Positions 9,025 to 21,480 of a DNA stretch of 44,527 nucleotides are shown here, piece after piece; position 1 is the first letter of the stretch; each line of letters starts with the position of its first letter. The notes under the pieces are model-generated. The model was given only the letters and a program-made list of their open reading frames with translations, was not told the origin of the DNA and made no database searches. The position numbers were made by a program, and so were the translations under genes. The stretch spans positions 1 to 44,527 of the forward strand of contig JAJRYZ010000222.1 in assembly GCA_024275515.1 (NCBI GenBank). Direction: 5' to 3'. This DNA is from Spirochaetota bacterium (lineage in GTDB: Bacteria > Spirochaetota > Spirochaetia > ARS1246).

Positions 9025-11580
9025 GTGGCCAGAGCGCCGATTCCAATCGTAGCGCTCCTCTTTCTCATCTCGCTCGTATCGTGCCTCAGTAACGACCGCG
9101 CGGACCGGCCGCTCGCGCAGGCCGATCCGCCTTCCGAAGTTCCGGTTTCACCGACCGCAGCACTGCCTGCCGATGTCGCCGCCGAAAAGGTGTCCGTCGG
9201 CGGAGAGGCGCAGGCCGAAGCGACCGCCGAGACCGAGGCCGAAGACCTGCAAGCGGGCGCCGCGTCACGAACGGCCGTGCGCTCGGCGGCAGGCTCGACT
9301 TCCACCGAAAGCGAAGCGGGAAACGAGGCGAAAGCGGCGGTCGAGACTCCGGCCGCCGCCGCTTTCGCTTCACCCGGCAACGTCGTTTCCTCATCCGACG
9401 GACTCTCGGACATCGACGTTACCGACGCCCTGCCGCCCGCCGTCGCCCGCGAGACCACCGCCACCGCCGGGGCGACCGAGCCCACCCAGCCCACCGCCAC
9501 CCCCGAGTCCGACCATACCGCCACAGCGACCAGGCCCACCGCCACCACCGAGTCCGACCACACCGCCGCAGCGACCACGCCGGCCGCGACCGCCGGGGCG
9601 GCCAGGCCCACCGCGACCGCCGGGGCGACCGAGCCCACCCAGCCCACCGCCACCCCCGAGTCCGACCACACCGCCACAGCGGCCATGCCCGCCGCCACAC
9701 CCGAGAGCGACCACACCGCCGTGCCCGAGTCCGCCGACACCGCCGCAGCGACCACGCCCGTCGAATCCGCCGGGAGCGCCGTTCGGCCGCCTGAGCCGGA
9801 CGACGCATCCGAATCGCCCCGCGAGCCGGAGGAGGAAGACGCTCGCGCAAGAACCGCGGCGACCGGGCCCGTCGATCCCGGCGGGATAGCCGAGCCCGGC
9901 GAGGTCACCGCCGCGGCTGCCGCCGCGGCGTCGAGGGAACCCGCCTCTCCGCCAAGCTCCCGCGGGCCGGCTTCATCCGATGCCTCCGGTGTCGAGTTAC
10001 GTCTTTCTGAAACGACGCCGGGAACGGAGGCGGCCGCCGGCTCGAAGTCCGCGCGGACGGATGAGCAAACGGTGTACGATGCATCGGAACTCGCTCCGAC
10101 GCCGAACGGCGATTCTCCCGACGGCGAAGAGAGCCGCGAAGCGGCGTCCGGCGAGGAAACGGCCGACGCGCCGGTAGACGAGTCGGCGACCGGCGCGAAG
10201 GCGAACGAAGAGGTAAGCACCGCGGCGGGAAGTGACGCGGTGCCGGAACCTGACGGATGGGCGCACGGGGACAGCGGCGGAGAGGCGAGCGGCGAAACGG
10301 GCGGAAAAGCGGACGAAACGGCGGACAAACCGGCCGGCGAGGAGACCGGTGAACCGTCGCGTCTCGCCGCGGCGACGGAGACGCAGACGGAGTCGGCAAA
10401 AAAAACGTCCGAGAGTTCGACCACCGAGCCCGCGCCGGCGGAGCCGACGGGGTCGACGGCCGAGCCGGGTCCGGCAGAGTCGACGGCCGAAAGGGCCGCG
10501 GCGGAACCTGCGCCGGAGCCGGCGGGCGGAAGGCCCGAACCTCTTTCGGTCGTCGAGATCGCGCGACGTCTCCGGCAAATGATGCCGGCCGGGATTTCGT
10601 TGATAGGACAGGGAAACGCGCCGCTTGCGATCTACCACGATTTCGACTCCGACGGATACGATGAGGTGTTTGTCCCGGCGGTCGAACGCGCGACCGACTC
10701 CGGTTTGATCGACGCCCGCGAGATAACCAATCAGACGCGACTCTACTCGCCGGAGACCGACGTGTTCGTCTTCCGTCTCTACGCTTTTTTCCAGCGCTGT
10801 GCCGATCTCGTCCTCTGGAGCGACGAACTGCTCGGCGCCTATCGGGTTCTCGAATCGTTCGAACTTGTCCGCATCGTCGCGGGGCGTCCCGACCCGGTGG
10901 CGGTGGTCGTAACCTTTATGACGTTGCAGGGCAGTGCGAGCGAGTGGGTCGTCTTTTCCGAATCGGCCATTTCTCGTCTTTCGCTTCGCAAGCGGATCGG
11001 CAGCCGGCCCGCCGTAGGCGACATAGACGGCGACGGAGTCATCGATATCGTGCTTTCGAACGAAAGCTTCGAGCCGGGAATCGGCTACGAAACCTACCTA
11101 TCGTGGCTCAAATGGACCGGAACAAGCTTCGAGCTGCACGACTCGGCAAATGTGGTCCGGTCGCTGCGGGAGTTTCTCGATGACGCGATCGAGGAGATCG
11201 AGCAGGGCCGTCTCGCTTCGTTTCTGCTCCGCGTCGGGTCCGATCCGGAGGACACGCCTACCGACGCGTCCGACACCGCGCTTCGCGACGAGGTATTCGG
11301 CGCCGTGTTTCATTTGGCCCCGTCACCCGCACATTTCACAAACCGCCCTCTTCCCCCCGACGCTCGAATCACGCGGATCGTCTATTCGCAGATCTTCGAA
11401 AACCCCTTTACCGGTATCGATTCGGACGGACGGTCCGTTTCGCGCGACGACTTTTTTCCGTTAACCGTCCGCGTCGAGACCGACGCGGGATCGGTCCATC
11501 TCTACACGGCGCGGGTGTTCATGGCGTCGAACCCGTTCCGTTCTCGTCGGTTTTTCTTCGGCCGGTACGGTCGGAGATGA
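9025..11580 (+). CDS. Lipoprotein with giant low-complexity region and FG-GAP-like C-terminal domain
   Basis: 851 residues starting at GTG. Residues 1-20 form a lipoprotein signal (hydrophobic core ending LVSC, Cys 20). Residues 25-505 are low complexity, rich in Ala, Thr, Glu, Pro and Gly; they include a 51-residue unit repeated once and again in part (TEPTQPTATPESDHTATA at 151 and 202). Such a stretch would span or extend from the periplasm. From about 507 a folded domain begins, with two calcium-type loops (DFDSDGYDE at 539, DIDGDGVID at 666) as in FG-GAP/VCBS propeller repeats. Function unknown; a surface or periplasmic spacer with a propeller-like head fits. The 3' end overlaps the convergent djlA-like gene by 62 bases. 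Confidence 0.8.
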   Translation: MARAPIPIVALLFLISLVSCLSNDRADRPLAQADPPSEVPVSPTAALPADVAAEKVSVGGEAQAEATAETEAEDLQAGAASRTAVRSAAGSTSTESEAGNEAKAAVETPAAAAFASPGNVVSSSDGLSDIDVTDALPPAVARETTATAGATEPTQPTATPESDHTATATRPTATTESDHTAAATTPAATAGAARPTATAGATEPTQPTATPESDHTATAAMPAATPESDHTAVPESADTAAATTPVESAGSAVRPPEPDDASESPREPEEEDARARTAATGPVDPGGIAEPGEVTAAAAAAASREPASPPSSRGPASSDASGVELRLSETTPGTEAAAGSKSARTDEQTVYDASELAPTPNGDSPDGEESREAASGEETADAPVDESATGAKANEEVSTAAGSDAVPEPDGWAHGDSGGEASGETGGKADETADKPAGEETGEPSRLAAATETQTESAKKTSESSTTEPAPAEPTGSTAEPGPAESTAERAAAEPAPEPAGGRPEPLSVVEIARRLRQMMPAGISLIGQGNAPLAIYHDFDSDGYDEVFVPAVERATDSGLIDAREITNQTRLYSPETDVFVFRLYAFFQRCADLVLWSDELLGAYRVLESFELVRIVAGRPDPVAVVVTFMTLQGSASEWVVFSESAISRLSLRKRIGSRPAVGDIDGDGVIDIVLSNESFEPGIGYETYLSWLKWTGTSFELHDSANVVRSLREFLDDAIEEIEQGRLASFLLRVGSDPEDTPTDASDTALRDEVFGAVFHLAPSPAHFTNRPLPPDARITRIVYSQIFENPFTGIDSDGRSVSRDDFFPLTVRVETDAGSVHLYTARVFMASNPFRSRRFFFGRYGRR
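9463..9690 (+). repeat. 153-bp tandem coding repeat (one full plus a partial unit)
   Basis: The sequence from 9463 recurs from 9616 with very few changes (for example GCGACCGAGCCCACCCAGCC in both). The period of 153 bases is 51 codons, so gain or loss of a unit keeps the frame. Likely length-variable between strains. Confidence 0.75.
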
Positions 11581-12379
11581 TTTGCCGGTAGGCGTTCTGG
11601 ATCCGGATAAACGCCTCTTCGGTCTGTCGACGGCGCTCTTCGTCGAGCTCGCCACCGGAGTCCGGATGAAACTGCGTCGCGAGCCGACGATAGACTCGTT
11701 TGATTTCGTCGATTTGCGCCGATCGCCGCACTCCCAGAATTCGGTACGCCTCATCGTCGGTAGGAACACCGGCTTCGCGCATCACGTTGAACCGTTCGGG
11801 CGAGACGCCGAGCGCGACCGATATGCTCCGAATAAGCTCATCCTGTGCCCGGTCGATCCTCTCCGATTCTCCCGCAGCCACGCGGTAGAGCAGCAGCACG
11901 ACCGCCTCGCGTTCTTCTTCACCGTTCGTTACCGCGACTAACTTTCCGCAAATCGAAGCCACCGCCGGAGCTCCGACCTGGAATAGTCGGGCGACGAAGT
12001 GGTCCACCGCCTGACGCTCGGGAGGCGACAGCTCGAAGGCGCAGGCGATTCTTTCCTTGAGCAACTCGCGCTCGAATCGACGGACCGAACCGTGCGTTCG
12101 CTTCATGAGCACCGCTCCCGTAAGAGCGGTGACCGACGCAAGCCATACCGAACGGTCGTCTATTCCCGTGCGGTCGCTCGTGCGGAAAAACCGATCGATT
12201 CTCTTCCAGCCCGACATTCTTGCCCGAAGCTCATCGACAAGATATCCGATAAGCCCTCCGAGGATGAGCCCGAACACGCCGAGCCCCGCAACGAGCCCGA
12301 CGACGCAGCCGGTAATCAATCCGGCGTGCCGGCGGAAGAGAGGGAAGGCGAGGGGGATGAGCTTGGGCAGGTTACGCAT
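11519..12379 (-). CDS. DjlA-like membrane co-chaperone (TerB-like plus J domain)
   Basis: 286 residues. A Gly-rich membrane segment (about 20-48, ending GLILGGLIGYLVDELRA) resembles the single anchor of DjlA. Residues 95-200 are helical with spacing like a TerB domain (KERIACAFELSPPERQAV, then SERIDRAQDELIRSISVALG). Residues 209-275 are a J domain with the HPD motif that stimulates DnaK (DEAYRILGV, RRLATQFHPDSGG). The start ATG overlaps the previous stop (ATGCGTAA), so translation is coupled to the LptF/G-like gene, suggesting a chaperone function for that membrane complex. The last 62 bases overlap the plus-strand lipoprotein gene. Confidence 0.8.
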   Translation of the reverse strand: MRNLPKLIPLAFPLFRRHAGLITGCVVGLVAGLGVFGLILGGLIGYLVDELRARMSGWKRIDRFFRTSDRTGIDDRSVWLASVTALTGAVLMKRTHGSVRRFERELLKERIACAFELSPPERQAVDHFVARLFQVGAPAVASICGKLVAVTNGEEEREAVVLLLYRVAAGESERIDRAQDELIRSISVALGVSPERFNVMREAGVPTDDEAYRILGVRRSAQIDEIKRVYRRLATQFHPDSGGELDEERRRQTEEAFIRIQNAYRQIISDRTGRRKTDENGTGSTP

Positions 12380-14225
12380 GTGTCGAACGAGATTCGGCGC
12401 TCGCCATGTAGAGTATCGCGAGGACCACAACGACGAGTTGCGACGCGATTACGAGGAGCAACGACAGATCGAATCCGACGCTCAGCGCGAACCACGAAGT
12501 GAGAATCCGGACCGCGTAGGAGTAGATTTCGACGAGACCGTACACGACTACCGGAAGCGCCGGAAGCAGGAGGAGGCCGAACGGCGTGGGTCTTCCTCTG
12601 CGCGGGCGTAGCCGCATCGCGAGCCCGGCCGCAAGAAGCGAAAGCACGAAGTACGAAAAAGGCGCCGTTATTCGTTCGAGAGCTTCGGCGCGCGCGGCGG
12701 TCGGGTCGTAGCCGTACCGGGGAAACAGCTCGATCATTTCGAGCAGCTCAAAAAAACCGGCCTTGACGATCATGTCGCTTTCCACCCGAAGCCGAACGAG
12801 GTCCTCGGCCCGGGCGCTAAGCGTCAAGACCGCGCCCGGCCCGCCCGACGCGTCGGTTTTATGGGAGGTGTCGGCGGCGTTGGAGGTGTCGGCGGCGTTG
12901 GAGGCGCCCGAGACGTCGCGGGCGTCGGAGGCGACGGATCCGCCCGGGTTCGACCGGGTTTCCGGCCCTCCGGCCACATACACAGGGCCCGTCGATATCG
13001 AGGCGTCTCTGCGGTCGATGCCGTGGAGAATGAGCACATTGCCGATCAACTGCGCAAGAGGCGCCCGGTAGTGATACCGCAGCCGACCGTCGGGACCCAC
13101 GGCGATTACTTCCACCCGCTCGACGAACGTGTCGGCGCCGAAAACCACAAGCTTTCCGAGCGTCACGAGCTCGAACCCGTCGGTCCCGTCGACGGAATTG
13201 AGAAAAGCGATATCACGGTTCCCCGGCATGGGAAGGATCTGAGAGGCTTCGTCGATAAAAAACGACATTTCCGCGACCTTCGTGGTGGCTTCGTCGAAAT
13301 ACCGGCGCGCTTCCACGTCCTCCGGATAGCGTTCGGTGAGCCGTTCGAAGATGTAGTAGCCTTCGACCACGCGCTTCGGGTCGGACGAACTGAGCGCTTC
13401 GATTCCCCGCCTTTTCATCGCGTAGAGCTCCGCCTGGTCACGCTCTGAGTCGGTGATTTCGAGCTCTTCGATCTTCCGCGACGCGAGCGCCGAGAGTCGG
13501 TCCGCTCGTCGCCACTCCTCGCCCAGCTGCGCCGCCGACTCCTTCGCGAGCCGCGCATAATAGTACGCGGAAAACGCGTCCTCGCGCTCGAGATAGCTTT
13601 CCGCGAGCGCGATAAGTTGCGCCGGCGACTGCACCGGCGGCCGGCCCCGTAGTGTCGGCTCCTCCTCCGCCGGCCCGCCGTTGCGGACCTCGTCGGCAAG
13701 GCGGGTGGTGACCGATCCGAAAAGCGCCGCGGCCGCCGCGTTGCCCGGGTCGACCGTCCGGTAGTATTCGAGAAGCGCGCGGCTTTCGCGATATCGACCC
13801 GCCTCGAAGGCCTGCCGGGCCCGATCGAAAAAGGCGCGGGCGACCATTGTCCGATAGCGATCGTCGTCGACGCTCCGCCGGGCTTGCGGTTCGACGCCCT
13901 CGACCAGGACCGCGTAGAGCAACGTCAAAACAAGAAAGACGATCAACGTCGCGCTCACCGAGCGGGTAAAGCTCTCCTGCACGCCGCGATCGGGCGAAAA
14001 AGAGTAGGTCAACAGAATGGCGGTGCAGTGCACCGTGAGGATGACCGACATGAATCCGACGAGCGCCTGGTTCATTGTCCACGACGCGCGAAAGACCGGC
14101 AGAAAGTACTTGACCGGGAAGGTAAAAGCGCCAAAGAAAAACAGCGACAGATAGACGACGGCATAGGAACCGACCACGACGAAAAGCATCCGGCGTTGAA
14201 CGACCGCCGTGTCGCCGTTGGTCAT
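12372..14225 (-). CDS. LptF/LptG-like permease with TPR-like insertion
   Basis: 617 residues with three N-terminal membrane helices (about 14-36, 52-75, 91-110) and three C-terminal ones (519-539, 548-572, 583-608), the 3+3 plan of LptF/LptG. Residues 120-320 are helical and TPR-like (ARQAFEAGRYRESRALLEYY; YYIFERLTERYPEDVEARRY), which is not usual in LptFG. Residues 345-410 are beta-rich (VEVIAVGPDGRLRYHYRAP), like the Lpt periplasmic jellyroll. The stretch FFELLEMIELFPRYGYDPTA followed by RITAPFSYFVLSLLAAGLAM matches the conserved coupling helix and TM4 of LptG. Starts at ATG with AGGAG, overlapping the previous stop (ATGA). Identity as an LptFG relative is inferred from topology and motif-level resemblance. 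Confidence 0.6.
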   Translation of the reverse strand: MTNGDTAVVQRRMLFVVVGSYAVVYLSLFFFGAFTFPVKYFLPVFRASWTMNQALVGFMSVILTVHCTAILLTYSFSPDRGVQESFTRSVSATLIVFLVLTLLYAVLVEGVEPQARRSVDDDRYRTMVARAFFDRARQAFEAGRYRESRALLEYYRTVDPGNAAAAALFGSVTTRLADEVRNGGPAEEEPTLRGRPPVQSPAQLIALAESYLEREDAFSAYYYARLAKESAAQLGEEWRRADRLSALASRKIEELEITDSERDQAELYAMKRRGIEALSSSDPKRVVEGYYIFERLTERYPEDVEARRYFDEATTKVAEMSFFIDEASQILPMPGNRDIAFLNSVDGTDGFELVTLGKLVVFGADTFVERVEVIAVGPDGRLRYHYRAPLAQLIGNVLILHGIDRRDASISTGPVYVAGGPETRSNPGGSVASDARDVSGASNAADTSNAADTSHKTDASGGPGAVLTLSARAEDLVRLRVESDMIVKAGFFELLEMIELFPRYGYDPTAARAEALERITAPFSYFVLSLLAAGLAMRLRPRRGRPTPFGLLLLPALPVVVYGLVEIYSYAVRILTSWFALSVGFDLSLLLVIASQLVVVVLAILYMASAESRSTHA

Positions 14226-15214
14226 CGTTTCTCCTCTCTCCGCGTAAACAGCAGATCGAGGGTGACGAAAAAACCGGCGAGAAAAAGAAAAACCAGCGAC
14301 GGAAGCTGTTCGGTCAGACCGCTCTCTCCGACTCCCGAGAACAGCGCCGTCATCAAATCGCCGGCGGACAGGTGGTAGAGGGCAAAAACGGCGCGAATCA
14401 TGAAGAGCGTCAGGATGAAGTTGACCAGTTTCCAACGGCTCAGACGCGAGAAGAGAACGCAGCTCGCCGAAAAGGCGCACACGGCCAACGCGGCGATCGC
14501 AAACTGCCGGTAGGCCGTACGCATCAGACCGGTGAGAAACGCCGTAAACGCAGCTATTTCCGAAAAAAAGCGCCTGAGAAAGCGAGACGGTTCGAACAGC
14601 GGCGTCGCCGTCGGGTTTTCGGGGCGAATGGGTATCGTGTCGGCGCCGGCGGAAACGGCATCGGCGGCCGGATCGTAGAGGCCGTTCGGGTAGTATCGCA
14701 CATCGAGAAGGCCCTCCGGCGACGAGTCGGCGGAGACCGGATCTACCGACCGGCGCTCGAGCCGGACGATCCCGAATAGCGTGCGGGGCGCCGGCGCGAC
14801 GCCGTCGACCGCTTCGCCGCCGCCGGCGTCGTCGACCGACGCGAAGAGAATCGCCCCGGAGTCCAACCGTTCGATTCTCCCTGGTTCAAGCGGGAAAGCG
14901 ATATCGGGCGCCGCGCAGTTCGGGCAGAGTCGGTCGATAAACCCGTAGCCGAAAACAAGGAGCGCCGCCGAGACGACGGAGATGAGCAGAAACGAGACCA
15001 GACCGGCCACGGCGCGTGACGGCATCAAGAAAAAACCGAGAAAAATTGATACGATGACCGCCGGCAACAGCACCGATTCCACCAGATACGGCAGCATCGA
15101 CGGAGGTCGTCCGGTTTCCCCGAGCACGCCGAGGAGGGTGAACGTGAACAGCACGGCACACACGGATGCGAACAGAAGCAGATACTTCGGAACGAGGAGC
15201 GCTGTGTCTCTCAC
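14222..15214 (-). CDS. 3+3-TM membrane protein, partner of the LptF/G-like permease
   Basis: 330 residues starting at GTG with TAGGA upstream. Three membrane helices (about 9-32, 40-64, 68-92), a beta-rich extracytoplasmic region of roughly 140 residues, then three helices (237-256, 262-281, 304-323). A CPNC motif (residues 97-100) sits just outside helix 3 and could form a disulphide. No family is obvious by itself, but the topology equals that of its neighbour and of LptF/LptG; such permeases work as two different subunits encoded side by side. First gene of the operon, divergent from the ECF sigma gene with 50 bases between starts, so control by that sigma factor is possible. Confidence 0.55.
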   Translation of the reverse strand: MRDTALLVPKYLLLFASVCAVLFTFTLLGVLGETGRPPSMLPYLVESVLLPAVIVSIFLGFFLMPSRAVAGLVSFLLISVVSAALLVFGYGFIDRLCPNCAAPDIAFPLEPGRIERLDSGAILFASVDDAGGGEAVDGVAPAPRTLFGIVRLERRSVDPVSADSSPEGLLDVRYYPNGLYDPAADAVSAGADTIPIRPENPTATPLFEPSRFLRRFFSEIAAFTAFLTGLMRTAYRQFAIAALAVCAFSASCVLFSRLSRWKLVNFILTLFMIRAVFALYHLSAGDLMTALFSGVGESGLTEQLPSLVFLFLAGFFVTLDLLFTRREEKR

Positions 15215-15264: not shown

Positions 15265-15834
15265 ATGGTAGTAGATCCGGGAACCGATACGATGGAAGCA
15301 CGGCTTATCGTTGCCGCCCAATCCGGGGATGCTGCCGCTTTCGAGCAGCTCGTCAGGCGGTACAGCCGCCGCGTTTTTCGCCTTGCCTATTCGTTTCTGC
15401 ATAACAGCGACGATGCCGCGGACGTCGTCCAGGAGGTGTTTCTCCGGGCGTTCCGCAATCTTGCCCGGTTCGACGTGCAGAGGAGTTTCTACCCGTGGCT
15501 CCACCGAATTACCAGGAACCTGTGCCTCAACCGACGCGAGTTGAAGGCGAACCGTGAAGCGACGCTTCCGACGGAGGATTTGCTTCCGGCCGCGGGGCGC
15601 GATCCGCTTGCGCTCACGCTCGAGCGCGAGGAAATCGAAACGCTCCGTCGCGCGCTTTGCTCCCTCCCGGAGATGCATCGGGAAATTCTGATGCTCAAAC
15701 ATTTCCAGGAGTGCAGCTACGCCGAAATGGCTGAGATTCTCGATATTCCCATCGGAACGGTCATGTCGCGACTCTACAACGCACGACGGAAACTGCGGGA
15801 TCTGCTTACGGAGACGGAGGTCGAACGACGATGA
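15265..15834 (+). CDS. ECF-family RNA polymerase sigma factor
   Basis: 189 residues with region 2 (LVRRYSRRVFRLAYSFLHNS, DDAADVVQEVFLRAFRNLARF, FYPWLHRITRNLCLNRRE) and region 4 (LPEMHREILMLKHFQECSYA, then EMAEILDIPIGTVMSRLYNA, the HTH). This is the RpoE/SigW type that answers envelope stress. The overlapping next gene is its zinc-finger anti-sigma factor (ATGA). ATG 15265 is taken from the ORF track; ATG 15292 (METRL-like MEARLIV) is an equally good start and fits the family better. The divergent LptF/G-like operon is a plausible target. Autoregulation is common in this family but no matching promoter pair was identified here. Confidence 0.93.
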   Translation: MVVDPGTDTMEARLIVAAQSGDAAAFEQLVRRYSRRVFRLAYSFLHNSDDAADVVQEVFLRAFRNLARFDVQRSFYPWLHRITRNLCLNRRELKANREATLPTEDLLPAAGRDPLALTLEREEIETLRRALCSLPEMHREILMLKHFQECSYAEMAEILDIPIGTVMSRLYNARRKLRDLLTETEVERR

Positions 15835-16259
15835 AATGCGATGAAGCCAAGCTCAAAGTGCAGGCGCTCGTCGACAACGAGCTGTCGGAGAATGAAATCG
15901 CCGAGGTCATCTCGCACGTCCAAAGCTGCTATCGGTGCCGGGACGACTATGTCGAACTACTCAAACTTCAGCGTAGAATGCAGGGGTTGCTTTCTCATGA
16001 CCCTGAATGGTTCGAAAAGCTCAACCGAAAAATCGGACGCAGGCTCGCTTCGTCGGTCGGGCAGATGCTGTTCATCGGCTCGTATGTCGCGTTGATCGGG
16101 TACGCCTTCTATTCGCTGTTCGCCGGGCGGGAGATAAGTCTCTTTCTAAAATTCGCCGTCGGGGGTATTCTTGTCGGTGTATTTACGTTGGTCGGCGTGA
16201 CCGTTGCGGACCGCGTGCGAGAGAGCAAAGACGACAGGTACAAAGGAGTCATGAAATGA
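15831..16259 (+). CDS. Zinc-finger (ZAS-type) transmembrane anti-sigma factor
   Basis: 142 residues. The N-terminal anti-sigma domain has the H-x3-C-x2-C signature in SHVQSCYRCRDDYVELLK, with an earlier Cys at position 3 (MKCDEAKLKVQALVDNEL), as in mycothiol- or redox-type ZAS proteins. Two membrane helices follow (about 80-98 and 106-126), ending in a short charged tail. It holds the ECF sigma at the membrane until a signal releases it. Start overlaps the sigma stop (ATGA) and its own stop overlaps the ybjQ start the same way, so the three genes form a tightly coupled operon. Confidence 0.9.
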   Translation: MKCDEAKLKVQALVDNELSENEIAEVISHVQSCYRCRDDYVELLKLQRRMQGLLSHDPEWFEKLNRKIGRRLASSVGQMLFIGSYVALIGYAFYSLFAGREISLFLKFAVGGILVGVFTLVGVTVADRVRESKDDRYKGVMK

Positions 16260-16576
16260 TTCTCTGTTCCACCGACGGTGTGCCCGGAAAGAAAATCACC
16301 AAGGTCATGGGGCTTGTCCGGGGTAACACGATCCGCGCGCGACACTTGGGCAGGGACGTTATGGCCGTGTTTAAGCATATGGCGGGCGGGGAAATCAGCG
16401 ACTACACCAAGATGATGGCCGAGACTCGCGAGCAGGCCATAGACCGGCTCGCCGAAGACGCCGAAGCGCTCGGGGCGAACGCGATCGTCGGCTTGCGGTT
16501 TACCACCACCAGCATGATGCAGGGGGCCGCCGAGTTTCTCGTCTACGGCACCGCGGTAGTGTGCGAGGACGAGTAG
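16256..16576 (+). CDS. YbjQ/UPF0145 family protein
   Basis: 106 residues. Family hallmarks: a beta start with VPGKKITKVMGLVRGNTIRA, a helix rich in acidic residues (TREQAIDRLAEDAEALGANA), then IVGLRFTTTSMMQGAAEFLV. Proteins of this family form homopentamers in crystal structures and are often called heavy-metal-binding, without a proven role. AAAGGAG precedes the start, which overlaps the anti-sigma stop. Its place in a sigma/anti-sigma operon suggests a function in the envelope stress response. Confidence 0.88.
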   Translation: MILCSTDGVPGKKITKVMGLVRGNTIRARHLGRDVMAVFKHMAGGEISDYTKMMAETREQAIDRLAEDAEALGANAIVGLRFTTTSMMQGAAEFLVYGTAVVCEDE

Positions 16577-16859: not shown

Positions 16860-17522
16860 CTACTCGATCGTGTACCCGTTCCCGTAGACGCTTTTGATCA
16901 ATTCGGCGCCGAGACCGCGGGCCGCCGTATCGACTCCGGCCCGAAGCGCATGAATCTGCATGTCCACCGCACGTGAACCGCCGCCGTCGCGGCCCCACAT
17001 GGCGAAAAAGAGCAATTCTCTGCTCACCACCTCACCTCTCAGCGCGAGAAGCGCGCCGAGGAGCGCCGACTGTTTCCGGTTGATCCGAACGGTCGTCGTC
17101 CGTTTTGCTCCCGCCCCGTCGAAGCCGAAACGCAGGATGAATCCGTCATGCTCGAGGACGCCCCACGAAAAACGATACGAGTTTCTGCGTCCCACCTTGA
17201 GCGCGCGAAAATGAAGCTCCTCGGGACTCCATGGTTCCTTGATGTAGTCCGCGCAACCGTCGACGAAAGCCCTGCGCAGCGACTCCGGAGGGCCGATGCC
17301 GATAACCGGAAGCCATGTCGCGGGCCGACGGTCGGGGGAGGTGAGCAGGTGGAGGTCGTTCAATCGAAGCGCGTAACAGTCGGTCTCGGCTTCCGGGAGC
17401 GGCGCATCACTGCACCGTACGAGAAACGCGTCGGCCCGCTTCGCGTAGACGGCGAGCCTGCGCACGAGGATCGCCTCCGATGAGAGATTGGACAGAACCA
17501 CGTTTAACCGCAGCGACGCCAT
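16860..17522 (-). CDS. OmpR-type winged-helix protein with degenerate receiver domain
   Basis: 220 residues. The C-terminal 95 residues form an OmpR/PhoB winged helix (INRKQSALLGALLALRGEVV, then ELLFFAMWG, RAVDMQIHALRAGV and LIKSVYGNGYTIE). The N-terminal half has receiver length and ends like one (VDGCADYIKEPWSPEELHFR, matching the K-P loop), but the acidic pocket and phospho-acceptor Asp are absent (near LRLNDLHLL only). It is therefore probably not switched by phosphorylation. No histidine kinase is nearby. It follows pspA by 74 bases on the same strand and may regulate, or belong to, the ybjN-pspA unit. Confidence 0.8.
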   Translation of the reverse strand: MASLRLNVVLSNLSSEAILVRRLAVYAKRADAFLVRCSDAPLPEAETDCYALRLNDLHLLTSPDRRPATWLPVIGIGPPESLRRAFVDGCADYIKEPWSPEELHFRALKVGRRNSYRFSWGVLEHDGFILRFGFDGAGAKRTTTVRINRKQSALLGALLALRGEVVSRELLFFAMWGRDGGGSRAVDMQIHALRAGVDTAARGLGAELIKSVYGNGYTIE

Positions 17523-17596: not shown

Positions 17597-18307
17597 TCAG
17601 GACTTCTTGTCGGAGTTGTCCTCTATCCGGCCTTCCGCCGCCATTTTTTTTCGAAGATCTTCGAGCAGAATATCGGCGCCGGCGTCGCCGGATTCGAGTT
17701 GGGCGAACTGCGACTCGATATCGTCCTTCTTCGACATATCTTCGATCTCGGCCATCGCATCGACTTCCGCCTCGATTTGATCGACCTTGGCCGCCATCCG
17801 GTCGAAAGCGGCGAAAGCGGAGCTGTCGGCCATGTTACCGATAGTGGCTTGGATGCGTTTCTGAGCCTCCGCGCGCTTCGCTCTGGCGATGAGCAGGTTC
17901 TTCTTTCGTTGCGCCTCTTCGATTTTCTGCTGCAATCCGCGGAGCGACTGCTTGAGCTTCTCGACCGACTCGTGCTGCGCCTGCCACTGCTCGCGGTACT
18001 GCCCGGCGAGCCCGCTGTACTCCTGTTTGCGCAGAAGAGCTTCCTTGGCGAGGTCTTCCTTTCCGGCTTTCAACGCCAGGCGCGCCTTACGTTCCCACTC
18101 GTCGGCTTGAGCGCCGTTCTGGTTCATCGCGCGCTCGAGTTTCTTCTCGTCGGCGATGGCCGAAGCGACGCTCTTTTTCGATTCGATGAGTTGTTCGTTC
18201 ATGTCGATGATCAGCTGATTGAGCATCTTTTCGGGATTCTCCGCCTTGCTGATCATATCGTTCAGATTCGACTTGACCACCCGTTTGAATCTGTCAAATA
18301 TTCCCAT
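17597..18307 (-). CDS. pspA: PspA/IM30 (ESCRT-III-like) membrane stress protein
   Basis: 236 residues, almost entirely coiled coil. The amphipathic N-terminal helix MGIFDRFKRVVKSNLNDMIS binds stressed membranes; the following helical hairpin (KMLNQLIIDMNEQLIESKKS, LIARAKRAEAQKRIQATIG) matches PspA through its length. PspA assembles into rods and caps damaged inner membrane. Here it lies 12 bases after the ybjN-like gene and no pspF, pspB or pspC is visible, so regulation must differ from the enterobacterial scheme; the winged-helix gene downstream is the local candidate. Confidence 0.93.
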   Translation of the reverse strand: MGIFDRFKRVVKSNLNDMISKAENPEKMLNQLIIDMNEQLIESKKSVASAIADEKKLERAMNQNGAQADEWERKARLALKAGKEDLAKEALLRKQEYSGLAGQYREQWQAQHESVEKLKQSLRGLQQKIEEAQRKKNLLIARAKRAEAQKRIQATIGNMADSSAFAAFDRMAAKVDQIEAEVDAMAEIEDMSKKDDIESQFAQLESGDAGADILLEDLRKKMAAEGRIEDNSDKKS

Positions 18308-18863: not shown

Positions 18864-19415
18864 CTATCCGAGGAAAACCTGCCCGGTATTGTCGATCGCG
18901 AGAATAGTTTTGCACTCCGAACAGCGAAACCGACCCGATTTCGTGGCCTTGAGCTTTTTTGAGCAGATCGGGCACTGGAAAATCTTCGGAAAGACGTCGG
19001 ACGTTCCCGCCTCTCCCTTCTTGCTGAAAAACTCGACCGCCTCGTTCAAGCTGTCTTTGATGTTGAAAAACTGCGAGAAGCCGAGCAGTTGAAAAACTTC
19101 ATAGACCTTGGGTTGAATTTCAAGCAGTACCAGGTCGCCGCCCCGCGGTTTTACCGCCTTCAAGAACGCGGTAAACGACCCTATTCCCGTACTGGAAACA
19201 TAGTTCAGCCCGGCGGCGCTGAATATGAGCCTAATGTATCCGGAGTCGATCGCCCTGGTAACCCGTTTTTGAAAGAAATTCGAATTGTAAGTATCTATAT
19301 AACCGGTTAGATAGAGAACGAGACAGCCCTCTACGGCGTCGACTTTTTGAAGACGGATTTTTAAGCTGTCGTCCTTCTCGTCGTCAAATCCAGGTACGAT
19401 GTCGTTATTGCTCAT
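18864..19415 (-). CDS. STAS-domain protein with C-terminal zinc ribbon
   Basis: 183 residues. Residues 18-125 form a STAS domain as in anti-sigma-factor antagonists (GCLVLYLTGYIDTYNSNFFQ; NYVSSTGIGSFTAFLKAV, where the SS after the strand is the position phosphorylated in SpoIIAA; GGDLVLLEIQPKVYEVFQLLG). About residues 145-175 hold two CxxC pairs, CPICSKKLKATKSGRFRCSEC, a rubredoxin-like zinc ribbon. The combination suggests a phospho-switch protein that also binds another molecule through the ribbon. No kinase/phosphatase partner is adjacent. AGAGGA lies before the ATG and a good promoter is at 19457-19486. Confidence 0.88.
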   Translation of the reverse strand: MSNNDIVPGFDDEKDDSLKIRLQKVDAVEGCLVLYLTGYIDTYNSNFFQKRVTRAIDSGYIRLIFSAAGLNYVSSTGIGSFTAFLKAVKPRGGDLVLLEIQPKVYEVFQLLGFSQFFNIKDSLNEAVEFFSKKGEAGTSDVFPKIFQCPICSKKLKATKSGRFRCSECKTILAIDNTGQVFLG

Positions 19416-19787: not shown

Positions 19788-20267
19788 ATGGTCAAGAAAC
19801 TCGCCGCCGCCGCGCTTTTTGCCAGTATCTCTTCGTTGATTGTCGGTCAGTCCATCGAAGATTTTAACGACGTTGTCGATTTTTCCGTATCGATTCGCGA
19901 GCTTTCGCTCGCCGCTGCGGCGGGCGACGTGGAGGCGCTTCCGACAAAACTTGTCGTGATCGACGGGACCGTCGCGTCGCGGCTGGTGGTGGACGCGAAT
20001 CCGGATACCTACATCGGACAGTTGGAGCTCGTGGGGGGCGAGTGGCTCGGTGTCGAAGACGTGGTGACCTACCGGTGTTTTCTGTTGTTGGAAGGGTCGC
20101 GCTTTGCCAACACGATACCCGCGCGGCGAAGTCGGACGAAACACCCCGACGAAATCGAGCTTAACTCGCGCATTCTCGTCGTCGGTCGGCTTCTCGGCCT
20201 TTTCGATATGGAGGACGGGACAACCGTCCCCGTGCTCGAAGTATATCATATCCGTCGGATAGACTAG
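19788..20267 (+). CDS. Exported protein of unknown function, 159 aa
   Basis: The first 20 residues are a signal peptide (MVKKLAAAALFASISSLIVG). The mature part is predicted beta-rich, with strands such as LPTKLVVIDGTVASRLVVD, YIGQLELVGGEWLG and SRILVVGRLLGLF, in the manner of an OB-fold-like or small barrel domain, although I cannot name the family. Start ATG follows GAGAGG. Its stop and the stop of the convergent sigma-54 activator share the bases CTAG, so no spacer exists between the two genes. Likely periplasmic. Confidence 0.7.
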   Translation: MVKKLAAAALFASISSLIVGQSIEDFNDVVDFSVSIRELSLAAAAGDVEALPTKLVVIDGTVASRLVVDANPDTYIGQLELVGGEWLGVEDVVTYRCFLLLEGSRFANTIPARRSRTKHPDEIELNSRILVVGRLLGLFDMEDGTTVPVLEVYHIRRID

Positions 20268-21442
20268 AAACGGGGCGAGTGACCGCCGGCCGGCGTCGTG
20301 ATACGGCCCCTGCCGGGAGGAAGCGTGAGCGCGTCGAGCTGCACCGCGCCGACATCGATGCGCCTTCCGTCGGACAGCACCGCCGCCCGTTGAATCGTGT
20401 TGTACAGCTCTCTTACGTTGCCGGGCCAGCGGTGGTCGACAAGTCGCTCCAAAGCGCGCGACGTGATGGTGTATCCCTCCTTTTCGAGTATCTGCTCGAT
20501 CAGCAGCGGAATATCTTCCCGACGTTCTCTGAGCGGCGGAATGTGAATGCGCAGCGTACTGACGCGGAAGTAGAGATCGACCCGAAACTCGCCGTTTTCC
20601 ACCGCATCGGCGACTCTCCGATTCGTCGCCGACACGATTCTCACGTCGACGTTCCGCGTCCGCCGGTCGCCGATTCGCGAGACCCGACCGTCCTCGAGTA
20701 CGCGAAGCAGCTTGGTCTGCGAGGAGGCGGGCATTTCGGCTATTTCGTCGAGAAAAAGCGTACCACCGTCGGCCTGCTCGAAGGAACCGGGCCGCGTTAC
20801 CGCGTCGGTAAAGGCGCCGCGTTCGCTTCCGAAAAGCTCGCTCTCGATTAGCGAACCGGGGATGGCGCCGCAGTTTCGCGCGAGAAAAGGGCCGTCGCTT
20901 CGCGCCGAGAGGTCGTGCAGCAACCTCGCGACAAGGTCTTTCCCCGTTCCGGTTTCGCCGGTAATCAGCACCGGCAGATCGGTCGCGGCGAACCGACCGA
21001 CGAGATCTCGAATTCGCGCCGCTTCGGACGACTCGCCGACGAAGCGGCGCACCCGCTTGTAGTGCGGCGCCGCTTCCGACGCGAATTGCAGCCGCGCGGC
21101 TTTCCTGATGGCGTCGAGGAGCGTCGAGCGATCGTATGGTTTCTCGATGAAATCGACCGCCCCGGCGAGCATCGCCTGCACCGCCAGACGTATTTCACCG
21201 AACCCCGTGAGCATGATGACCGGAGGGCTGAACGATAGACGAGTAATACGCCGCAGCACTTCTATTCCGTTCGAGTCGGGCAGATCGACGTCGAGGAGTA
21301 CCACGTCCGGTCGTCCGCTCTCGGCCATACACACACCCGCGTTACCGGTCGTCCCGGAAACGAGCGTATACCCCGCAGGAAGCGAGATTCTGAGGAGGCG
21401 ATGAGCGTTCGGATCGTCGTCTATAAAAAGGACCTTAATCAT
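20264..21442 (-). CDS. Sigma-54 activator: receiver plus AAA+ domain, no DNA-binding domain
   Basis: 392 residues. Receiver 1-120 with FIDDD, phospho-acceptor Asp 51 (VVLLDVDLPDSNG) and Lys 101 (FIEKPY). AAA+ domain from about 135 with Walker A GETGTGKD, the sigma-54 contact loop GAFTDA (usual form GAFTGA), Walker B GGTLFLDEIAEMP and the R-finger region FRVDLYFRVSTLRIHIPPLRER; NVRELYN closes it. After it only about 45 residues follow and no Fis-type HTH is seen. It should therefore activate sigma-54 polymerase from solution, as HTH-less activators such as FlgR do. ATG 21442 is chosen because a strong promoter has its -10 nine bases upstream. The sigma-54 promoter at 29104 is a possible target. 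Confidence 0.9.
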   Translation of the reverse strand: MIKVLFIDDDPNAHRLLRISLPAGYTLVSGTTGNAGVCMAESGRPDVVLLDVDLPDSNGIEVLRRITRLSFSPPVIMLTGFGEIRLAVQAMLAGAVDFIEKPYDRSTLLDAIRKAARLQFASEAAPHYKRVRRFVGESSEAARIRDLVGRFAATDLPVLITGETGTGKDLVARLLHDLSARSDGPFLARNCGAIPGSLIESELFGSERGAFTDAVTRPGSFEQADGGTLFLDEIAEMPASSQTKLLRVLEDGRVSRIGDRRTRNVDVRIVSATNRRVADAVENGEFRVDLYFRVSTLRIHIPPLRERREDIPLLIEQILEKEGYTITSRALERLVDHRWPGNVRELYNTIQRAAVLSDGRRIDVGAVQLDALTLPPGRGRITTPAGGHSPRF

Positions 21443-21451
21443 CGATGAGTG

Positions 21452-21480
21452 AGTATAGTACATACTACTTAAAAAGTCAA
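21452..21480 (-). promoter_or_regulatory. Strong promoter of the sigma-54 activator, leaderless geometry
   Basis: Minus strand: TTGACT (21480-21475), 17 bases, TATACT (21457-21452), then nine bases and the ATG. Transcription would begin at or next to the start codon. Confidence 0.7.

Follow-up and report, generated by a model that had tools for sequence, protein, structure and literature searches.

The window, by which we mean the whole stretch of 44,527 nucleotides analyzed here, carries on its minus strand three overlapping genes, two for membrane proteins and one for a DjlA-like protein:

14222-15214, minus strand: LptF-like short protein with 3+3 transmembrane (TM) segments, 330 aa, GTG start (translation, AlphaFold, Foldseek, hhalign)
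12372-14225, minus strand: TPR-LptG-like protein with 3+3 TM segments, 617 aa (PF03739, AlphaFold, Foldseek)
11519-12379, minus strand: DjlA-like protein, 286 aa, with an N-terminal TM segment, TerB and a J domain with intact HPD (domain matches)

Both junctions reported in a preliminary description of this DNA can be read in the sequence: an ATGA overlap at 14222-14225 joins the 330-aa and 617-aa genes, and a ATGCGTAA overlap at 12372-12379 joins the 617-aa gene and the TerB/J gene. The same description had proposed two adjacent proteins with 3+3 membrane helices around an extracytoplasmic domain, with which translations and AlphaFold models agree. The loci of 41 relatives from many families were fetched (counts out of 42 add the window locus). 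Nearly all have a membrane ORF immediately upstream of the TPR protein in the same direction; this partner is recognized by a family HMM in 40 of the 41, and the ORFs mostly overlap by 4-8 bases. Because the partner recurs directly upstream in so many relatives, the layout is not due to chance. The J/TerB gene follows the pair in 23 of 42 loci, window included, and is an optional member of the operon. On the opposite strand, downstream of the pair, lies an 851-aa ORF (9025-11580, plus strand) with about 480 residues of Ala/Glu/Thr/Pro-rich low complexity followed by an FG-GAP-like region; its relatives occupy the same position and orientation in many loci.

The two membrane proteins can be divided into the following parts:

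13872-14225, minus strand: TM1-3 half of the long protein; no coupling helix in its TM2-TM3 loop, residues 76-84 (model, family conservation)
13236-13868, minus strand: TPR insertion of the long protein, residues ~120-330, predicted periplasmic (profile, model, loop charges)
12786-13226, minus strand: beta-domain of the long protein, residues ~334-480, with a disordered segment at 425-463 (AlphaFold model)
12378-12701, minus strand: TM4-6 of the long protein after an LptG-like E-x3-R-x3-PF motif; basic cytosolic TM4-TM5 loop (PF03739, model, hhalign, charges)
14624-14881, minus strand: beta-domain of the short protein, residues 112-197, between TM3 and TM4 (strands in AlphaFold model)

Judged by PF03739, profile-profile comparison, AlphaFold models and PDB matches, both membrane proteins are distant relatives of LptF/LptG. 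The 617-aa protein matches PF03739 with an E-value of 1.7e-6 and 27.8 bits for a cut-off of 27.9 (28.9 bits in a six-frame search), over a segment (residues 490-566) that corresponds to the pre-TM4 motif and TM4/5. A match at E < 0.01 is found for 25 of 42 members of its family, and for the short partners 2 of 40 match at E < 0.1. The equivalog scores are far under cut-off (LptF TIGR04407: 22.1 versus 230 bits; LptG TIGR04408: 17.6 versus 240 bits). With hhalign, 174 columns of the C-terminal half of the long protein can be aligned to canonical spirochaete LptG (E 3e-8); the TM1-3 half alone has no match in the PDB search and reaches only E 0.1 against LptG. The short protein aligns with both LptG (4.4e-6) and LptF (2.9e-5). 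Its profile also matches a 414-aa frame of another genome (G110:C17:92994-93635; E 6.3e-9), directly upstream of canonical LptG at 91530-92579; by its position this frame is canonical LptF.

The AlphaFold models, behind which stand alignments of only about 40 sequences, have a pLDDT of 87.2 for the long and 87.8 for the short protein. In both models a beta-domain is predicted between TM3 and TM4, and the short protein has the order TM1-3, beta-domain, TM4-6. Foldseek searches of the PDB place LptG on top for the long protein (E 3e-6) and LptG/LptF for the short one (E 4.7e-5), with modest TM-scores of about 0.2-0.54 for the LptG matches of both. Sequence, profile and structure searches, run independently, thus return LptF/LptG first or as sole match, and the kinship proposed earlier is borne out by both hhalign and Foldseek. 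The LptFG-type fold of the pair is considered secure; its function we infer.

In the long protein, TM3 is followed by TPR repeats and these by the beta-domain. The repeats are backed by the AlphaFold model and by matches of the family profile to solved TPRs, in support of the unusual insertion of about 200 residues noticed before. The mean net charge is about +3 for the TM4-5 loop of the LptG-like protein and +1.5 to +2 for the loops of its LptF-like partner. On the basis of loop charge, TM2-3 and TM4-5 loops are assigned to the cytosol, so that the TPR and beta-domains are predicted to be periplasmic. In the short protein, the conserved cytosolic TM4-TM5 loop contains the family motif R-x-T-R-W-P-L-x-N. 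The overlapping gene had been correctly called DjlA-like: the 286-aa protein shares the TM-TerB-J order and the HPD with DjlA (TerB 26.0 bits, cut-off 24.4; DnaJ 52 bits, cut-off 27.8). It differs in that its score for the DjlA equivalog NF006948 (55.9 bits) is under the 162-bit cut-off and in that its gene is optional. Its J domain is predicted to be cytosolic. A partnership of TPR and J domain within one compartment was therefore rejected on predicted topology. Since the membrane separates the predicted locations of the two domains, and only about half of the loci have the J gene (see above), a direct link is unsupported, and the earlier pairing of the TPR domain with its own J-domain co-chaperone is not upheld.

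In LptFG, the coupling helices are found at TM2-TM3, where LptF E84 and LptG E88 touch LptB (PMC5548808, PMC10094684). In canonical spirochaete LptF and LptG, the coupling Glu and Gly of TM2-TM3 are 100% conserved, while in the two new families the best column of the same stretch reaches 71% (TPR-LptG-like) and 55% (LptF-like). The alignments of both new families contain no conserved acidic residue or Glu in this stretch, which is modeled as a short helix-less loop (residues 76-84 in the long and 62-67 in the short protein). By alignment and model, the TM2-TM3 coupling helix is lost in both members, and the pair seems to be without contact to an ATPase motor. Of the LptG-like coupling helix and TM4 described before, TM4 therefore stands and the coupling helix does not; the conserved segment before TM4 was most likely mistaken for the latter. 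In the loci examined, no gene next to the pair was recognized as an ATPase. In the genome of the window, a single LptB-like gene stands out (G000:C328:11751-12468), in fragments; lower-ranked matches score at most 164 bits where the cut-off is 240 bits, as is usual for general ABC ATPases. A dedicated LptB was rejected for this genome. A probable frameshift at a G-run in the region of the signature motif (L124 1900-1930) interrupts the sole strong LptB-like gene and is probably a sequencing or assembly error.

The genome also keeps canonical LptF/LptG behind pnp and dut, and the idea that the pair substitutes for canonical LptFG was therefore rejected. PF03739 is found in 142 of 148 genomes of the class, a count that may include the second pair. 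LpxC was found in none of the 118 class genomes searched. With LpxC absent, neither the canonical nor the second pair is expected to carry LPS, and the presence of canonical LptFG without detectable LpxC makes a non-LPS cargo plausible for the LptFG fold in this class. The non-LPS cargo suggested earlier agrees with this: LPS is ruled out if the absence of LpxC (118 of 118) equals the absence of lipid A. The Lpt model of B. burgdorferi gives only BB0807/BB0808 as LptF/LptG (PMC10353723), and in T. pallidum the canonical proteins are TP0883/TP0884 (PMC8407342); the Lpt-system passages of these two papers do not contain the second pair. The published models give each spirochaete a single Lpt permease pair; as far as these passages go, a second LptFG-like pair is undescribed. 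A small complete genome of 1.1 Mb (G076) shows neither gene of the pair and keeps canonical LptFG; it belongs to family f24, which includes pair-bearing genomes.

A search with the 617-aa protein recovers the TPR-LptG-like protein in 241 of 395 class genomes (96 of 133 genera), and a profile search finds it at full length in other classes of the phylum as well. The profile tally (297 of 393) includes weak, perhaps TPR-only matches and is not a prevalence figure. In the Borrelia-like genomes (family f19), the TPR protein has 597-600 aa and is preceded by a 5-TM protein of 313-314 aa; the two adjoin a CarD gene, an RsmE-type methyltransferase and a CtpA-type protease. This 5-TM protein has a weak match to the short family that covers the beta-domain (E 4.5e-4), and none to LptG, so its membership is mainly by position. 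CarD of B. burgdorferi is LtpA, BB0355 (PMC6037790). By gene order, the Borrelia pair should then be BB_0354/BB_0353, which are called hypothetical proteins in the one paper found naming both (PMC6711536).

The surroundings of the pair are composed of the following genes:

15265-15834, plus strand: ECF sigma factor, divergent (domain matches)
15831-16259, plus strand: zf-HC2 anti-sigma factor (domain match)
16256-16576, plus strand: YbjQ (PF01906), third gene of the ECF operon (locus annotation)
16860-17522, minus strand: winged-helix regulator (Trans_reg_C), co-directional with the pair and upstream of it (20 loci have relatives)
17597-18307, minus strand: PspA/IM30, likewise upstream of the pair and co-directional with it (21 loci have relatives)
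18864-19415, minus strand: STAS + zinc-ribbon protein (relatives in 24 of the other loci)

The divergent ECF sigma gene reported earlier is present and followed by its zf-HC2 anti-sigma gene. The ECF-antisigma-YbjQ operon lies divergently upstream of the pair in 11 loci and is absent from most; in the window it is placed between the winged-helix gene and the pair. YbjQ is the constant third gene in nearly all loci with this operon beside the pair. A sigma-54 activator with a receiver domain (20264-21463, minus strand) lies upstream of the STAS and PspA genes of the window and recalls the control of psp operons by PspF.

Two observations on PspA are new in this analysis. The pspA gene lies upstream of the pair in the same direction in 21 of 42 loci, and among the PspA-bearing genomes of the class, PspC is present in 9 of 53 with the pair versus 19 of 25 without it (Fisher p 7e-7), an anticorrelation that is confounded by ancestry and has p 0.012 at family level. 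The genome of the window has PspA, and PspC was not detected in it. Over 118 genomes, the co-occurrence of pair and PspA is not above expectation (p 0.84), and a strict co-occurrence was rejected on this basis. Moreover, the pair is present without PspA in the Borrelia-like genomes and in most f24 genomes, so PspA cannot be its sole partner. These pspA/STAS/winged-helix surroundings, the canonical LptF/LptG elsewhere in the genome and the class-wide and Borrelia-like conservation extend the preliminary description, in which they did not appear.

Compared with known systems, the pair resembles LptF/LptG (YjgP/YjgQ, PF03739; the permease of the LptB2FG LPS extractor) in its adjacent genes, its 3+3 TM segments with a beta-domain between TM3 and TM4, its pre-TM4 E-x3-[RK]-x3-PF-like motif and the top PDB matches of both proteins. 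It differs by the absence of a TM2-TM3 coupling helix, by the TPR insertion in the LptG-like partner and by being additional to a canonical pair. With the canonical spirochaete proteins (BB0807/BB0808; TP0883/TP0884, as named in the passages cited above) it shares fold and genomes, with LPS expected as substrate for neither; the coupling-helix motif, however, is kept there and missing here. PspA-PspB-PspC offers a second, partial parallel: PspA is linked to membrane-protein genes in an envelope-stress neighborhood in 21 of 42 loci and is absent from many pair-bearing genomes, the linked genes are LptFG-like here, and PspC is undetected in the genome itself. A survey of PSP systems describes classic pspABC in some spirochaetes and does not mention LptF (PMC11237479).

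The reading that we tentatively favor, although we give it somewhat less than an even chance, is that this diverged LptF/LptG-type pair is an envelope-stress module for lipid handling or anchoring that is not driven by LptB via the usual contact. The short and long proteins would form a heterodimer like LptF and LptG, which LptB would not power through TM2-TM3. The periplasmic TPR and beta-domains may sense or hold a lipid, a lipoprotein or an outer-membrane precursor, and the basic cytosolic loops might be a membrane docking site, in many species for PspA and the TerB/J-DnaK machinery. The pair could then take the place held elsewhere by PspC, or pass lipids passively to periplasmic carriers. 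A bolder version, which we regard as unlikely in its entirety, is that an LptFG scaffold has been turned into an ATPase-independent stress device, a TPR-armed lipid receptor for PspA and DnaK that ranges from free-living spirochaetes to Borrelia (BB_0353/BB_0354) and replaces PspBC in many of them.

The absence of the coupling helix from both subunits also weighs against the idea of a true ABC exporter, which would borrow an ATPase, either the genome's single LptB or one encoded elsewhere, via a different cytosolic contact, for instance the R-x-T-R-W-P-L-x-N loop, to move a non-LPS lipid or lipoprotein. The LptF/LptG fold of both proteins, the LptB fragments on G000:C328, the conservation of the TM4-TM5 motif in the short partner and the plausibility of a non-LPS cargo for this fold would all fit such an exporter. 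Yet the loci examined showed no recognizable ATPase gene next to the pair, and the other ATPase matches of the genome fall short of the cut-off, so we deem it unlikely, if deserving of attention. Similarly doubtful, and slightly more so, is a purely structural anchor or sensor, in which the LptFG-type part holds a TPR arm for binding precursors of the outer membrane or of lipoproteins and signals to the ECF/anti-sigma pair or PspA, moving no lipid. The size of the TPR insertion, the 11 loci with a divergent ECF operon and the 21 with pspA upstream speak for it; however, both subunits retain the beta-domains typical of lipid-carrying Lpt proteins, and most loci are without the ECF operon. That these are unrelated 6-TM proteins resembling LptFG in topology only is already disfavored and appears very improbable: the low identity, the modest TM-scores and an N-terminal half that is unconvincing by itself are compatible with it, but not the convergence of the independent searches on LptF/LptG.

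As a second conserved pair, these proteins are concrete candidates for a step in lipid or lipoprotein handling while LPS-less spirochaetes build their outer membrane. Should the pair truly lack an ATPase, it would demonstrate that an LptFG fold can work uncoupled from an ABC motor. The link of the pair to PspA makes the idea testable in culturable species. A variation on the arrangement occurs in the AT-rich f53 genomes (possibly Brachyspira), in which a 144-aa TPR protein replaces the LptF-like gene before the TPR-LptG-like gene; the latter stands ahead of an rRNA adenine dimethylase gene (L119 4501-6659).
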